Positions 12,929 through 20,252 of a stretch of DNA of 64,000 nt are shown here, piece by piece. Positions within the stretch are counted from its first letter, which is position 1; each line of letters opens with the position of its first letter. Under the pieces are notes generated by a model. It saw nothing but the letters and a program-made list of their open reading frames with translations, searched no databases and was not told where the DNA came from. The stretch comes from a bacterium (lineage in GTDB: Bacteria > Planctomycetota > Planctomycetia > Planctomycetales > Planctomycetaceae), in NCBI GenBank assembly GCA_016125225.1, contig WGME01000018.1, positions 248,001-312,000 of the forward strand, written 5' to 3'. Position numbers and translations under genes: made by a program.

Positions 12929-14137
12929 ATGCCCGACTACTCCTACATCGCCCGTGAACTTTCTGGTCAGCAGACGGTGGGTGTGCTGACAGCAGGGACA
13001 GAGCGCGAAGCGATCGGGCAGTTGGCCGCACGCAATCTCTTTCCGCTCGAAATCAAAATCGCGGAAACGCACAAAGCGCAAGAGGCCAGCAAGAAGGGAC
13101 GGGTCGGCGGCCGGGTGCTGGCGGTGTTTTACACTCAGCTTTCCGATCTGCTGAAAGCCGGCGTGCCGTTGCTGCGTTCGCTGACCATTCTCGAAAAGCA
13201 AGCCCCGAATGCGACGTTGAAAGCCGTCGTCTCGGAAATCCGGGCCGATGTCGCCGATGGCACCCGGTTGGCGGAAGCGCTCCGCAAGCATCCGCAAATC
13301 TTTTCCGACCTAGTGATCAGCATGATTCGCGCCGGGGAAGAAGGGAGCTTCCTGGAAGATTCCTTAACCCGCATCGCCGACTTCACGGAACATCAGGAAG
13401 ACATGAAGGGCCGCGTGATCGGGGCGATGATTTACCCCGTGATTCTGCTGACCCTGGGCACCATCATCGTCACGGTGATGATGGTTAAATTCGTGCCGCA
13501 GTTCGAACCCACCTTTGCCGCCTTGCGTGATGCTGGGGAACTTCCCTGGGCGACGACGGCACTCGTCGGTTTCAGCGATCTCATTCGGTATTACGGTCTG
13601 TTCGTGCTCATCGGGCTGATTGCACTCGGTTATTTTTTGAATCGGTATCTCAAGTCCGATTCGGGCCGGTACAATTTTGACCGCGTGTGGTTAAAACTGT
13701 ATGGCGTTGGATCGGTCACGAAAACGCTGGGGATTGCCCGGTTTTGCCGTGTGCTGGGAACGCTGCTGCGGAACGGGGTGCCGTTGCTGGCCTCGTTACG
13801 GATCGCGAAAGATGCCGTCGGCAACCGCGTGCTGACCGAAGCGATTGCCGAAGCGGCCGAGCATGTTTCCTCGGGGAAATCTCTGGCCAGGCCGCTGGGT
13901 GACTGCAAGCATTTTCCGAATGATGTGATTGAAATGATCGCCGTCGGTGAAGAAGCCAACAACCTGGAGCAGGTGCTGATCAACGTGGCAGACAAAATGG
14001 AACGCACGACCAATCGTCAACTCGACTTGGTGGTCCGACTGTTGGAACCGGCGATGCTGGTGGTGATGGCGGGGGTGATTCTGTTCGTCGTCGTCGCGTT
14101 GATGCTCCCCATTTTGAAGACCTCACAAATCGCCTGA
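12929..14137 (+). CDS. gspF: Type II secretion / pilus inner-membrane platform protein (GspF/PilC family)
   Basis: A 402-residue polytopic inner-membrane protein that couples the ATPase to pseudopilin assembly. The N-terminal segment MPDYSYIARELSGQQ is typical. Two T2SSF four-helix domains are evident, one beginning FYTQLSDLLKAGVPLLRSL (about residue 70) and the second FCRVLGTLLRNGVPLLASL (about 272). Transmembrane helices lie near 170-190 (VILLTLGTIIVTVMMVKFV), 225-242 and 375-397. Length matches the family. Its start codon is preceded by the CAACCCT array instead of a normal ribosome-binding site, which may reduce or vary its translation relative to gspE and gspG. Confidence 0.95.
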   Translation: MPDYSYIARELSGQQTVGVLTAGTEREAIGQLAARNLFPLEIKIAETHKAQEASKKGRVGGRVLAVFYTQLSDLLKAGVPLLRSLTILEKQAPNATLKAVVSEIRADVADGTRLAEALRKHPQIFSDLVISMIRAGEEGSFLEDSLTRIADFTEHQEDMKGRVIGAMIYPVILLTLGTIIVTVMMVKFVPQFEPTFAALRDAGELPWATTALVGFSDLIRYYGLFVLIGLIALGYFLNRYLKSDSGRYNFDRVWLKLYGVGSVTKTLGIARFCRVLGTLLRNGVPLLASLRIAKDAVGNRVLTEAIAEAAEHVSSGKSLARPLGDCKHFPNDVIEMIAVGEEANNLEQVLINVADKMERTTNRQLDLVVRLLEPAMLVVMAGVILFVVVALMLPILKTSQIA

Positions 14138-14227
14138 TTTGGTTAAGATAGAGATCTCGCTGCCCTGTAAAATGAGGGAGCGACCGCACACACTGAATTT
14201 GCCCGAAGCTACGAAAAGGATGCCGTT

Positions 14228-14692
14228 ATGTTGTCTCGCCGAACCCCGTCCCGCCGCCGTCGTGCCGGTTTTACGCTCACCGAAGTTCTGCTGGTGCTCG
14301 CCATCATCGGCGTGATTGCCGCGATGGTCATTCCCAACCTGATTGGTTCGCAACAGAAGGCGAACGTGCAGGCCACCAAGAACAGCATCACGGCCTTTGA
14401 GAACATTGTGAAAAATTATGCGGTGGCGAATGCCGGGACCTTCCCTGAAGGTGGCCGTGACGAAGTCATCACCATGCTGCTGAATCCGCCGGTGGATGAG
14501 GACGGCAAAACCGTCGCCCCCTACATGGAACAATCGCCGAAAGACGCCTGGGGTCAGTCGCTGTACTACGAATATCCGACGAACAAAGTGCAGAATGGCA
14601 TCAAACCCGCCATCTGGTCTTCAGGACAGAACAAGCAAAATGAAGACGGCAACGGCGATGATGTGAACAACTGGCAGGACACCGGGAAATAG
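14228..14692 (+). CDS. gspG: Major pseudopilin (GspG-like)
   Basis: A 154-residue type II secretion major pseudopilin. The class III leader ends RRRRAG, and the mature protein would begin FTLTEVLLVLAIIGVI with Glu at position +5, the hallmark of pilins processed by prepilin peptidase. The C-terminal part (DAWGQSLYYEYPTN, then IWSSGQNKQNEDGNGDD) matches the GspG calcium-binding fold seen in members with DxWGxPYxY. An AAAAGGA ribosome-binding site lies 9 bases before the ATG. It is expected to polymerise into the periplasmic pseudopilus assembled by GspE and GspF. Confidence 0.93.
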   Translation: MLSRRTPSRRRRAGFTLTEVLLVLAIIGVIAAMVIPNLIGSQQKANVQATKNSITAFENIVKNYAVANAGTFPEGGRDEVITMLLNPPVDEDGKTVAPYMEQSPKDAWGQSLYYEYPTNKVQNGIKPAIWSSGQNKQNEDGNGDDVNNWQDTGK

Positions 14693-14752
14693 CCGAGTAC
14701 AATGAGCCCAGTCTGATGGACTGAAAGCCTTGCCCTCTCATGCCGCTATAAC

Positions 14753-15364
14753 ATGAGCCGTCCGAGTTGCCAGCGACGTCGCGGTTACACGCTGGTCGAG
14801 TTGTTACTCGCCCTGGCGCTGCTGGGGGTGTTGGCGAGCGTGACCGTGCCTTCGGCGATGCGGCTCTTCTTCCGGTCGCAATTGACCGGGGCCATGGAAG
14901 ACGTGCGGGCTCAACTGGCCGGCACGCGCGTTCGGGCGATTGAATCGGGGCTGGTGTACCAGTTTCGCTTCGAACCCGAGGGACGGTACTACATGAGCGT
15001 ACCGTTCGAGCGCGAAATTGAAGCCAGCGACCCGAACGCCACCGGCACCGGAGCCACCACCGGCATCGGCAAGTTCACCCGCTTTGCTGGCCAGCTACCG
15101 GACGGTTTTCGCTTCGTCGACTGCTGCTCCGGTTCGGGGGCGATTGGCGGGGAACTCGATGCCGCTGTCTTCGGCGAACTTCCCAATGCCGATGAACTCG
15201 CTAATGTCTCCTGGTCGCCTCCCATCCTGTTTTATGCGGATGGTTCCGCGGGAGATGCGGCGTTCGAACTGGTGGATGGCCAGGCCCAGTACGTGAAGCT
15301 GCAGGTTCGCGGCCTCACGGGGGCCACCTCGGTCAGCCTGATTCAAGACCGGGGGGGCTCATGA
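14753..15364 (+). CDS. Minor pseudopilin (GspH-like)
   Basis: A 203-residue prepilin with the cleavage motif RRG then YTLVELLLALALLGVLASV, with Glu at +5. The globular part is longer than that of the major pseudopilin and rich in beta-strand and Gly/Ala/Ser loops, as in GspH minor pseudopilins. Its stop overlaps the next start by four bases (ATGA at 15361-15364), implying translational coupling. The H assignment rests on operon position and length, as sequence identity among minor pseudopilins is low. Confidence 0.85.
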   Translation: MSRPSCQRRRGYTLVELLLALALLGVLASVTVPSAMRLFFRSQLTGAMEDVRAQLAGTRVRAIESGLVYQFRFEPEGRYYMSVPFEREIEASDPNATGTGATTGIGKFTRFAGQLPDGFRFVDCCSGSGAIGGELDAAVFGELPNADELANVSWSPPILFYADGSAGDAAFELVDGQAQYVKLQVRGLTGATSVSLIQDRGGS

Positions 15365-15828
15365 TCGCCATTCGATCTCCCCGACTAAGCTCGCGGCACA
15401 CCACCGGCTTCACGTTGCTGGAAGTGGTGCTGTCTCTCGCGATTTTCTTTACGTCCATGGCAGTGCTGTCGCAGATCAACTGGAATGCCACGCGGGCCTC
15501 GGTACAGGCTCAACTCACTACACAAGCCTTGCTCCGCTGCGAGGCCAAATTGCAGGAAATTGTCGCCGGTGCAGAACCCCTCAGCGATCAGCAGAATGTC
15601 CCATTCGATGACAACGCCGAATGGACCTGGTCGCTGCAGACAGCCCCCACGGTGATGCCAGAACTCCTGGTGATCCGCGTAACCGTCTCCCGAGTCTCAG
15701 ACAGCAGCCTGGGCAATGCCAGCGTCTCGCTGGAACGCTGGATGCGAGACCCTGAGGTGCTGATTGAAGCGGCTGAAGAACAGGCCGCCATTGAAGCCGA
15801 CCAGGCGAACAATGCGGGAGTCCCATGA
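15361..15828 (+). CDS. Minor pseudopilin (GspI-like)
   Basis: A 155-residue prepilin. The leader ends TTG and the mature N-terminus would be FTLLEVVLSLAIFFTSMAVL, with Glu at +5. The compact C-terminal domain (AQLTTQALLRCEAKLQEI) resembles GspI, which nucleates the pseudopilus tip with J and K. ATGA overlaps couple it to both neighbouring genes. The letter assignment follows the conserved H-I-J-K order. Confidence 0.85.
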   Translation: MIAIRSPRLSSRHTTGFTLLEVVLSLAIFFTSMAVLSQINWNATRASVQAQLTTQALLRCEAKLQEIVAGAEPLSDQQNVPFDDNAEWTWSLQTAPTVMPELLVIRVTVSRVSDSSLGNASVSLERWMRDPEVLIEAAEEQAAIEADQANNAGVP

Positions 15829-16703
15829 TGCGTCTCCTAAGGCTAAGCCGCTACCGCGTTTCGTATCCACGACAAAACCACAGTCGCCGGGGTTTGTCTC
15901 TGCTGGAAATGCTCCTCGCCGTCGGCCTGTCGCTGGTTTTATTGACCGGCATCTATACGGCACTCGATGTCTCGAACCGTCAGGCCACCGTCGGTAAAGC
16001 CGAGATGCAGCGGTTGCAACTCGCGCGGGCCATTTTGCGACGGATGGAAATGGATCTACGGGCGACCATGTTTGATGTCGATTCCGCGGTCAGCGATACA
16101 GGCACCGATGCGAACCTGAATGCCAACGTCACCACCATCGTCAGCGATACCGATAGTGATACCGAATGGACCGGCAGCCTGGGCATCCGTGGCAGCAGTA
16201 GCGAACTCTGGATCGATCTCTCGCATATCAGCCGCGAACTCGAATTCACGGCCGCCACAGCACAAAGCGATATGCAAACGGTCGCTTATTTCTTATCGAG
16301 CAACTCGTCCTCAAACGATTCCACGGGCCCCTATTCCGCTTATTCGATCTCAGAGAGTGACGATTCGACTTCCAGTTCGAACAGTCCGGGATTGGCCCGC
16401 AGTCAGGGGGAACGCTCGGTATTAAGAGCATTGAATGAGTCGAGCACCGGGAGTGTCCTGCCCGGCCCCACGCAAGTCCTTGCCCCCGAGGTCGATGCCC
16501 TGCAGTTCCGTTACTTCGATGGCCTCGCCTGGTACGAAGAGTGGGACAGTTCGACCATTGGAGATTTACCACGTGCCGTGGAAGTGATCATTGGCATCGA
16601 CAGCGGCGGCACCATGAAAACCAGTGTCAGTTCGCCCCGCAGCTTCCGGATGGTCGTCGCCATTCCTGCGAGTGATCCCCTCCTCGAAGAGGAGACCTAC
16701 TGA
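15825..16703 (+). CDS. Minor pseudopilin (GspJ-like)
   Basis: A 292-residue prepilin. The leader ends SRRG and the mature protein begins LSLLEMLLAVGLSLVLLTGI, keeping Glu at +5. Family traits are QRLQLARAILRRMEMDLRA after the helix and a C-terminal strand region (RYFDGLAWYEEWDSS) typical of GspJ. A Ser-rich disordered insert lies near residues 165-190. The gene overlaps GspI by four bases and the GspK-like gene by one (TGATG). Confidence 0.87.
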   Translation: MMRLLRLSRYRVSYPRQNHSRRGLSLLEMLLAVGLSLVLLTGIYTALDVSNRQATVGKAEMQRLQLARAILRRMEMDLRATMFDVDSAVSDTGTDANLNANVTTIVSDTDSDTEWTGSLGIRGSSSELWIDLSHISRELEFTAATAQSDMQTVAYFLSSNSSSNDSTGPYSAYSISESDDSTSSSNSPGLARSQGERSVLRALNESSTGSVLPGPTQVLAPEVDALQFRYFDGLAWYEEWDSSTIGDLPRAVEVIIGIDSGGTMKTSVSSPRSFRMVVAIPASDPLLEEETY

Positions 16704-18325
16704 TGCACGATCGCCAATCCCGTTTATCGAAACCCTCTCGTGCGAACTCACGGCGTGGCACCATACTGGTTGTGGTGCTGGTGGTTGTGGTGCTGCTCAC
16801 ATTGACGGCGGCCCACTATTCTTCCTGGGTGACCACCGAATACGAAGCCGCCGCCATCACCACGGCCGATGTGCAGGCCCGCATGCTGGCCGATTCCGGG
16901 GCGGACTATGTCGCGGCCTTGGTGGCGAATCGGGCTGACTCGCAATCGAACAATTTCCAGCACAATCCCGATCTGTTTCTGGGCATCAATGTGGTGGAAT
17001 CGCAGTTTGACCGTGCACGGGGCCGGTTCACCATTATCGCCCCCCTCGAACAGGATGAAACGGCCACGCACATCCGTTACGGTCTGATCGACGAGTCGGC
17101 GAAGCTGAATCTGAATCTGCTCGACCAGCTTGAGTTGGACGATGAGGATTCACGCAATCTGCTGATGGGTCTGCCCGGCATGACCGAGGACATTGCCGAC
17201 GCCATTCGCGACTGGGTCGATAGCGATGATACCTCGCGCGAATACGGAGCCGAATCGGAATACTACGAAACGCTGTCCCCTGCCTACTCCGCGAAGAACG
17301 GTCCGCTGGAAACCATCGATGAACTGCTGCTGGTGAAAGGGGTCACGCCCGAACTGCTCTATGGGGAAGACGCCAACCGGAACGGCCTGCTCGATCCGAA
17401 TGAAGATGATGGCGAAGCCTCGCCGCCGTATGACAATGCCGACGGCATCCTGCAGCATGGCTGGATCGGTTATCTCACGGTCTACAGCCGTGAAATCAAT
17501 CTTGCTTCCGATGGGTCCCCAAAAATCGATCTCAACAATGGCATTCTCACCGACCTGTACGATCAACTCGCCGAAGCCTTCGATGATGATGTCGCCGCGT
17601 TTGTGGTGGCCTATCGCATGAGTGGGCCGCTCGACCAAAACCCCAACCAACCGGCCCAACAAGCGGCAAACAACAATCAGCCCAATCCTGCAGCCCCCGG
17701 TGCGGGGGCCGTCACCCGGGGCAATCCACCGCAAGATCTTTCCGGCGGAGCCAAGTTCCAGATCGCATCGATCTTTGAACTCCTCGGCGAATTCTCCCGA
17801 ACGACACCAAAGTACGTTAACGGTGCGAATAACGCTCAATTGGATACTCCCTGGCCCAACAAGAATGATGTTGCCAAGATTCTCCCTGAACTTCTCGATA
17901 AGACGACGCTCTCTGCTGACCCCTATCTGGAAGGACGGATCAACATCAACCAGGCGCGACGCGAAGTGCTCGTGGGTCTCCCCAGCATGACCGAAGAGAT
18001 CGTCGATGCCATCCTTGCGTCCCAGCCGGTCGACCAGGATGGCCAACCTGTCACCGATGTCATCGAATCGCACAGCACGACCGGCTGGCTTTATACCGAG
18101 GGCTTGGTCAGCATCTGGACGATGCGGGAAATTGACCCGTTCATCACTGCTCACGGCGATGTTTATCGTGCTCAGATCCTCGGCTTCTTTGATGGCGGCG
18201 GCCCGGTCAGCCGTATTGAAGTCATCGTCGATGGCACCGAGATTCCGCCACGTGTGGTGTTCCACCGCGATCTGGATGCCCTAGGCCGGGGTTACTCCCG
18301 CCAGCAGATCTCCCCACAGCAATAG
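16703..18325 (+). CDS. Minor pseudopilin / tip protein (GspK-like)
   Basis: A 540-residue, unusually large pseudopilin. The leader ends SRRG, followed by TILVVVLVVVVLLTLTA; the +5 Glu of other pilins is absent, as is normal for GspK, which caps the pseudopilus tip. Helix-hairpin-helix-like segments are visible (LLMGLPGMTEDIADAIRDW and VLVGLPSMTEEIVDAIL), with an Asp/Asn-rich possible calcium site (EDANRNGLLDPNEDDGE). An Asn/Gln/Pro-rich linker occupies about residues 310-340. It is the last gene of the operon. No GspL, GspM or GspC gene follows. Confidence 0.87.
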   Translation: MHDRQSRLSKPSRANSRRGTILVVVLVVVVLLTLTAAHYSSWVTTEYEAAAITTADVQARMLADSGADYVAALVANRADSQSNNFQHNPDLFLGINVVESQFDRARGRFTIIAPLEQDETATHIRYGLIDESAKLNLNLLDQLELDDEDSRNLLMGLPGMTEDIADAIRDWVDSDDTSREYGAESEYYETLSPAYSAKNGPLETIDELLLVKGVTPELLYGEDANRNGLLDPNEDDGEASPPYDNADGILQHGWIGYLTVYSREINLASDGSPKIDLNNGILTDLYDQLAEAFDDDVAAFVVAYRMSGPLDQNPNQPAQQAANNNQPNPAAPGAGAVTRGNPPQDLSGGAKFQIASIFELLGEFSRTTPKYVNGANNAQLDTPWPNKNDVAKILPELLDKTTLSADPYLEGRININQARREVLVGLPSMTEEIVDAILASQPVDQDGQPVTDVIESHSTTGWLYTEGLVSIWTMREIDPFITAHGDVYRAQILGFFDGGGPVSRIEVIVDGTEIPPRVVFHRDLDALGRGYSRQQISPQQ

Positions 18326-18791: not shown

Positions 18792-20252
18792 TTATCCCGC
18801 AAGACCGGCCGCGAAGGCTTCCGGGGGAAGTTCCTTGCCCGTCAACGATTTGAAAATCTGCGTGACATATTCAGCAAAGATGTCGGATGGTTCGACGACT
18901 TTGCAACCCCGTTCGCGGGCTTCGGAGATCAACGGTGACTCAGCCGGCGGGTCGGTGAGATCCATGAAGGCCATGCCGGGCCGCAAGACCGACGGGTTGA
19001 TCGGCGTTTTCCGCGACGCATGATCGAAGTTCCGCACCGTGGTGATCACGCAATCAACCAGGGTTTCATACAGTTTGCCCAACGGGACGTAACGGCTACT
19101 TGTATGTTGGGCCGCCTGCTGGGCCTGCGAATCTTCGGCCGCACATAGGCTGACCAGTCCGGCCCGCTTCTGTACTCCTAATGCGAGGGCCTGAGACAGC
19201 CCCCCGGCTCCGAGAACCATCACGTTTCGCCGTTCCAGAGGACGATCTTCGGCCGTTTGCTTGCCGAGTTTGGTTTCCAGCGCCTTGAGGGCAATGCGGC
19301 CCATAAGGTTATAAGCCTGCCAACCATCGGGTTGTTTCAGGAACAGGTCGGCATATTGCGCCTGCCGCGTGCCTTCATCCATGTGCTGGGCCAAGCGCAG
19401 CAACAACTGGCCATAAGCCGGCATGGCCAGTAACGCGGGGACCTTCAGGATGTCGAGCATCTTGGCGAGTTGCTCGGGGTTCTTGACGTCGAACGGCAGA
19501 CACCGCGTGTTCATGTCGAGTTGATCGAACGCCGCATTCAGCACTTTACAGGTGGCTAGCGACATTTCGCTGAAGCCGCACACTCCGATGAATCGCGTCT
19601 TGCCACTCACTTGCCGCCAGCGATACAGATCATCGAGATCGCCCACCGTCGGTTGTCCCGGGAAGGCTTCCATCCCTTTTTCCAAAGCGGCATAAATCCA
19701 CGGCGATCCGTATTTCCGCCCTAACAGTGAAAACGTTAAGCCGCAGCGTCCCAATCCCAGACCGACCACCGGCAGCGACCGCTTCTGACTCACCGCCGCC
19801 AGCAACGGCCAAGCCGCTTCCAGCGTTTGAGTCGGCCAAGTGAACTTGATGACATCGGCCTTCGCTGCGACTGCCTCATCAAAGATCGGTTCGATATCGT
19901 TGCCCAGCGGACGATCGAGGCTGGTATAGCTGATGACGCGCTGCACTTTGCCAAACCGTGGAATCTTGTGGGCGGTTTCAGCGTCTAACTCGACATAGGC
20001 CGGTCCCGCCAGAATGGCCTGCCTCAGCAGCATCAACCGCTCGTCTTCCGTCCCCTGGAACTGCCCCCCTTCCGACTGCCGCCGGCAGGAGACGAGAATC
20101 GGTTTCTTGGCCCCGTCGAGCAGATCTTTGACGTCGGGCTCTTTCAGCAACCGATCGAGGCAGACTTCCACGATGTCGCACTGCCGGGCCGCATTCAAAA
20201 TGTCGACCTTGGCCAACTGTCGGGATTCCGGCGTGACGGAGATACAGATCAT
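18792..20252 (-). CDS. AroD-AroE fusion-like protein, catalytic residues largely lost
   Basis: A 486-residue protein with the layout of the bifunctional type I 3-dehydroquinate dehydratase / shikimate dehydrogenase found in planctomycetes and plants. In the dehydratase half (1-215) the Schiff-base Lys136 (DVIKF) is present. The catalytic His position is Thr110 (ISYTS), the EvRlD Arg is Cys31 and the SR motif Arg is Ser175. In the dehydrogenase half (219-486) the SxS motif reads SLAT (231-234), the catalytic Lys of NVTIPxK is Tyr280, and the NTDG Asp is Met (NLMG). The Rossmann loop LGAGGLSQAL is intact. It is recognisable as a homologue but unlikely to perform the normal shikimate reactions; a regulatory or altered activity is possible. 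Confidence 0.75.
   Translation of the reverse strand: MICISVTPESRQLAKVDILNAARQCDIVEVCLDRLLKEPDVKDLLDGAKKPILVSCRRQSEGGQFQGTEDERLMLLRQAILAGPAYVELDAETAHKIPRFGKVQRVISYTSLDRPLGNDIEPIFDEAVAAKADVIKFTWPTQTLEAAWPLLAAVSQKRSLPVVGLGLGRCGLTFSLLGRKYGSPWIYAALEKGMEAFPGQPTVGDLDDLYRWRQVSGKTRFIGVCGFSEMSLATCKVLNAAFDQLDMNTRCLPFDVKNPEQLAKMLDILKVPALLAMPAYGQLLLRLAQHMDEGTRQAQYADLFLKQPDGWQAYNLMGRIALKALETKLGKQTAEDRPLERRNVMVLGAGGLSQALALGVQKRAGLVSLCAAEDSQAQQAAQHTSSRYVPLGKLYETLVDCVITTVRNFDHASRKTPINPSVLRPGMAFMDLTDPPAESPLISEARERGCKVVEPSDIFAEYVTQIFKSLTGKELPPEAFAAGLAG

Follow-up and report, generated by a model that had tools for sequence, protein, structure and literature searches.

The two halves of the AroDE-like protein P0001 have diverged in opposite directions, the dehydroquinase-type barrel being frozen and the shikimate-dehydrogenase-type half relaxed; this opposition is what is new here. 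P0001 is a non-canonical paralogue of 486 amino acids, encoded from an ATG start without an internal stop at positions 18792..20252 on the minus strand of the window, by which we mean the whole 64,000-nucleotide stretch of Planctomycetaceae DNA that was analysed. The barrel half, residues 1-212 (19617..20252, minus strand), is supported by a PF01487 match, the structural model, and the identity comparison. Residues 213-486 (18795..19616, minus strand) form the dehydrogenase-type half, from which the active-site and NADP residues have gone together with the constraint on the pocket. The altered protein belongs to an ancient clade and is not a decaying duplicate.

The initial annotation described an AroD-AroE fusion, and this description held: the open reading frame has exactly the limits given above, residues 3-210 matched PF01487 over the cut-off in a family profile search (E=2.3e-37), and residues 3-480 were aligned by phmmer with the Arabidopsis DHQ-SDH 2gpt (E=2.7e-32). 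A structure prediction built from a 35-sequence alignment gave a mean pLDDT of 92.3 and a pTM of 0.89, and the model matched Arabidopsis DHQ-SDH crystal structures (2o7q) with a TM of 0.84 across both domains. Given the alignment over the whole length and this model match, the two-domain architecture and both folds are kept. P0001 thus shows both the profile and the barrel fold of a type I dehydroquinase; against the aroD equivalog model TIGR01093 it scored 67 bits, below the cut-off of 139.3. P0001 shares with the plant DHQ-SDH and planctomycete AroDE enzymes both domains, their order, and the Schiff-base Lys, but it lacks their catalytic His, both substrate Arg, the Lys/Asp dyad, the SxS motif, and the NADP Arg, and it falls in a separate clade.

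Individual residues were read from an alignment of P0001 with 11 canonical planctomycete AroDE proteins; the position numbers of the Salmonella enzyme (Arg48, His143, Lys170, Arg213, Glu46, and Arg82) are the established ones. All three substitutions that had been proposed for the dehydratase half were borne out. Cys31 (20160..20162, minus strand) replaces the EvRlD Arg (Arg48) and is Cys in 81 of 109 sequences. Thr110 (19923..19925, minus strand) stands in place of the catalytic His (His143; Arabidopsis His214), where the canonical proteins have SYH or SHH; this column is Thr in 90/109 and Ala in 11/109, and across the altered clade it varies among Thr, Ala, Ser, Asn, Val, and Arg. Ser175 (19728..19730, minus strand), found in 101/109, replaces the Arg of the SR motif, which binds the substrate carboxylate (Arg213; Arabidopsis Arg279). 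The Schiff-base Lys136 (Lys170; 19845..19847, minus strand), also claimed to be kept, was present in all 108 altered members. A dehydroquinase would need both this His and the Arg that binds the carboxylate; with the two gone, the barrel is almost certainly not a working dehydroquinase. It retains Glu29, Arg57, Glu61, Lys136, and Gln200 of the 11 canonical proteins; Glu29 and Arg57, like Lys136, occur in 108/108 members of the altered clade, and an acid at position 61 (86 in Salmonella numbering) is usually retained. Reading the barrel as a dead scaffold is disfavoured by the invariance of the Lys, Glu46, and Arg82, which such a scaffold would have no need to keep. Ten further residues are nearly invariant in the altered clade and mostly absent from the canonical proteins, namely Ser10, Arg11, Asp17, Asn20, Ser55, Glu88, Trp148, Trp185, Glu191, and Gly193.

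The SxS, IPHK, and NTD motifs, which are present in the canonical planctomycete AroDE proteins, are absent from the dehydrogenase half of P0001. The altered SxS motif and the replacement of the catalytic Asp of NTD by Met317 (19302..19304, minus strand; NLMG) agreed with what had been claimed. The loss of the catalytic Lys was likewise correct, but its position was one residue off: Tyr280-Gly281 (19410..19415, minus strand) lies where the canonical proteins carry the His-Lys of IPHK, and the Lys column corresponds to Gly281 instead of Tyr280. The surrounding segment, LAMPAYGQLL, is loosely aligned and contains no Lys. With Gly281 and Met317 at its two positions, the Lys/Asp dyad of shikimate dehydrogenases is missing. 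The nucleotide loop had been called intact. The Gly-rich turn GAGG (348-351; 19200..19211, minus strand) of the dinucleotide fold is there in P0001, but the Arg of the subsequent NADP motif (NRT/SRT) is lost and the second and third Gly of GxGG are retained in only about 70% of the altered clade; the statement is therefore limited to the Gly-rich turn of P0001 itself. PF08501 (Shikimate_dh_N) matched 0 of 35 altered members as against 11 of 11 canonical proteins, and PF01487 matched all 35 altered members.

All four catalytic residues were missing in 106 of 108 altered members, and the recurrence of the same losses in these related proteins excluded chance or alignment error as their cause. 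Weak yet genuine dehydroquinase or dehydrogenase activity, with other residues compensating and P0001 serving in effect as a spare AroDE, could draw on the retained Lys136, Glu29, Arg57, and the usual acid at 61. We consider it very improbable, as the catalytic His, the substrate Arg, and the dehydrogenase dyad are all absent in those 106 proteins, the dehydrogenase pocket is unconstrained, and these genomes also carry a canonical AroDE.

The opposite constraint on the two halves was seen when altered and canonical copies from the same genomes were compared. In 28 genome pairs, which were drawn from eight genomes and are not independent, barrel identity was higher for the altered paralogue than for the canonical copy in 23 pairs, whereas identity of the dehydrogenase half was lower for the altered paralogue in all 28. 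Over 20 dehydrogenase-pocket positions, picked from canonical invariants, the entropy was 2.16 bits in the altered proteins versus 0.18 in the canonical ones. Conservation within the barrel showed no significant bias towards the C-terminal ends of the strands, where the pocket lies (p=0.24). Close pairs of altered genes gave dN/dS values mostly of 0.02-0.09, with the barrel mostly lower and usually at 0.05 or less, so that the suggested check across species revealed strong purifying selection. Pairs of the L026/L048 type, whose dN/dS is close to 1, were excluded as only 36-53% identical; at that distance synonymous change has probably reached saturation and is skewed by base composition.

The genome that contains the window (6.35 Mb, 100% complete) has three AroDE-like genes. 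The second complete aroDE that the initial annotation had proposed to look for was found at G000:C41:318134-319567. It is canonical, with every motif that the alignment showed to be lacking in P0001 (SYH/SHH, SxS, IPHK, and NTD), and it gives the only Shikimate_dh_N match in the genome. No type II dehydroquinase was found in this genome, and aroB and aroC are each present once; thus, the canonical AroDE copy most likely serves the shikimate pathway. The third AroDE-like gene (L031 5125-6639; G000:C41:95145-96638) also lacks the catalytic residues, having Asn110 and Gly175, and forms a long branch nested within the altered clade.

The altered AroDE was detected in 35 of 37 sampled Planctomycetaceae genomes, as a rule alongside the canonical copy; the two genomes without it were G018 (88% complete) and G023. 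In a phylum-wide sample, every further Planctomycetaceae genome had an altered copy, and the 13 matches from other planctomycete families whose motifs were read were all canonical. Carriers include relatives of Schlesneria, Gimesia, Thalassoglobus, and Planctomicrobium, and divergent altered members occur in two genomes from other families of the class (G039 and G053). In a quick tree of 78 rows, with no root inferred, the altered proteins formed one clade (SH-aLRT 100) apart from one unrelated case in another planctomycete family, f38. There, AroDE has been duplicated (L184 and L188 of G250; L185 of G282) and each copy lacks the motifs of a different activity: one keeps the dehydratase motifs and has a shortened dehydrogenase half; in the other, IPHK and NTD remain but the catalytic His is replaced by Tyr and the EvRlD Arg by Leu. 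From its motifs, the f38 pair looks like a division of labour, independent of the P0001 clade.

A duplicate decaying towards loss might be read from the two genomes of 37 that lack the altered copy and from the G015 copy (L030), which has an in-frame stop (TGA) and may be shortened. This is hardly credible, being contradicted by the low dN/dS values and by retention throughout the whole family. The co-occurrence of both copies in nearly every sampled Planctomycetaceae genome, together with the entire two-domain architecture of P0001, would also suit a protein that assists the canonical AroDE in a regulatory or structural way, for example by pairing with the working enzyme as a heterodimer and so tuning or stabilising it. 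Such a partner is improbable, although less so than decay: the two genes lie close together in only one genome (G027), other planctomycete families manage without the altered copy, and the barrel retains residues for chemistry that a scaffold does not need.

Repurposing of the barrel would account for these patterns. An ancient duplicate of the bifunctional AroDE would have been turned to a new use in, or close to, the common ancestor of the Planctomycetaceae. Having lost the catalytic His and both substrate-binding Arg, its barrel would no longer dehydrate dehydroquinate; with the Schiff-base Lys, Glu46, Arg82, usually the acid at 86, and invariant residues of its own, it would most likely bind covalently, or transform, a different carbonyl compound without a ring carboxylate through Lys136. 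The dehydrogenase half, minus its substrate, dyad, and NADP-phosphate residues, may act as a scaffold or lid. We give about an even chance to a barrel repurposed for another carbonyl ligand via Lys136 with the dehydrogenase half as scaffold; the loss of both activities, the use of Lys136, and the nature of the ligand are what we infer from the sequences. More tentatively, and with somewhat less than an even chance, the barrel may be a new Schiff-base lyase or aldolase acting family-wide on a carbonyl metabolite, its proton-shuttling His and carboxylate Arg lost and the rest frozen. Three observations speak against repurposing of the barrel for another carbonyl ligand: its constraint is not significantly gathered around the pocket, the His column is variable, so no replacement base is evident, and no conserved pathway neighbour hints at a substrate. 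The same data can also be accounted for by binding alone, and we lean slightly towards catalysis over pure sensing. The view of P0001 as a pseudoenzyme with a non-canonical role was supported, with one refinement: the halves are unlike, and only the dehydrogenase half looks dead, while the barrel looks repurposed.

Sensing has a fungal model. The repressors QutR of A. nidulans, TanX, and GaaX are built from AROM-derived dehydroquinase and dehydrogenase domains, and it is a working hypothesis that they are inactive but bind the inducer (PMC10512348). P0001 has the same two domains, which in the fungal proteins are regarded as catalytically inactive and put to a new use (PMC10512348), and its two halves lack catalytic residues as well, so that a dead barrel could bind dehydroquinate or a related metabolite and control a transcription factor or an enzyme. 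Such a ligand-sensing regulator is possible but rather unlikely. The fungal repressors carry a shikimate kinase domain ahead of the other two and have a partner activator, and neither was seen for P0001, in which PF01487 is the only Pfam domain and the open reading frame starts at the barrel. No DNA-binding domain was found in P0001 and no conserved regulator adjoins it, and the loss of both substrate-binding Arg argues against dehydroquinate itself as the ligand. We assumed that P0001 originated independently of the fungal repressors.

The repurposed barrel can also be set beside two other cases. The plant enzyme residues His214, Arg279, Lys385, and Asp423 are named in PMC7752791, and in plant quinate dehydrogenases His214Phe and Arg279Gln accompany the loss of dehydratase activity (PMC7752791). 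In P0001 the same His and Arg of the dehydratase are replaced as well; however, the dehydrogenase half of the plant proteins is still active, whereas in the P0001 clade it is the unconstrained one. In Candida albicans Aro1, active-site substitutions inactivate the type I dehydroquinase domain and leave the fold intact (PMC9074039). Aro1 has a single dead domain in a working enzyme, for which a type II dehydroquinase compensates, whereas P0001 is changed in both halves and a separate canonical copy is intact. QutR, the plant quinate dehydrogenases, and Aro1 are precedents that place P0001 in a known kind of case, in which shikimate-enzyme domains are put to new use once catalytic residues have been lost; a literature search for papers on AroDE paralogues in planctomycetes found none.

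An operon with a pathway gene was rejected, since no gene within 6-10 kb recurs as a neighbour throughout the family. At 21 of 109 loci, a count that includes repeats of the same genome, the gene directly upstream has the same orientation and encodes a CehA/McbA-type metallohydrolase of about 800 amino acids with a signal-like N-terminus (for example L086 3436-5868, L068 9772-12171, and L049 1582-4152); this protein has no Pfam model and one in NCBIfam. The linkage is scattered over several branches, including the earliest-branching family member (L049), suggesting that it is old and has since been lost. However, the metallohydrolase has no match at E <= 1e-60 in the window's genome, so it does not explain P0001, and it also occurs in families without the altered AroDE; functional dependence of P0001 on it is accordingly not claimed. 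In several Schlesneria-group genomes (L072 7455-8348; L073-L076 and L088), a PfkB-type sugar kinase gene lies 3 to 154 bases downstream and is probably on one transcript with the altered AroDE; as a pathway partner it was set aside as lineage-specific. Within the window, the gene 39 bases downstream of P0001 (18333..18752, minus strand) encodes a small protein that combines a domain resembling the C-terminal one of ribosomal L7/L12 with a hydrophobic tail; a genome of the same genus has a homologue at the corresponding site (L071). Beyond it, 12929-18325 (plus strand) carries a GspF-like gene and several genes for proteins with prepilin-type leaders, convergent with the P0001 gene; judged from the translations, this run resembles a cluster for type II secretion or pseudopilins.

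P0001 is one bifunctional protein whose halves have taken opposite paths, one frozen and one relaxed. A family-wide relative of a core biosynthetic enzyme, strictly maintained with a rewired active site, implies a function common to almost all Planctomycetaceae. Automatic annotation will assign it the function of a bifunctional shikimate enzyme or of a dehydroquinase. Such a label is almost certainly mistaken and would spoil metabolic models and essential-gene comparisons.
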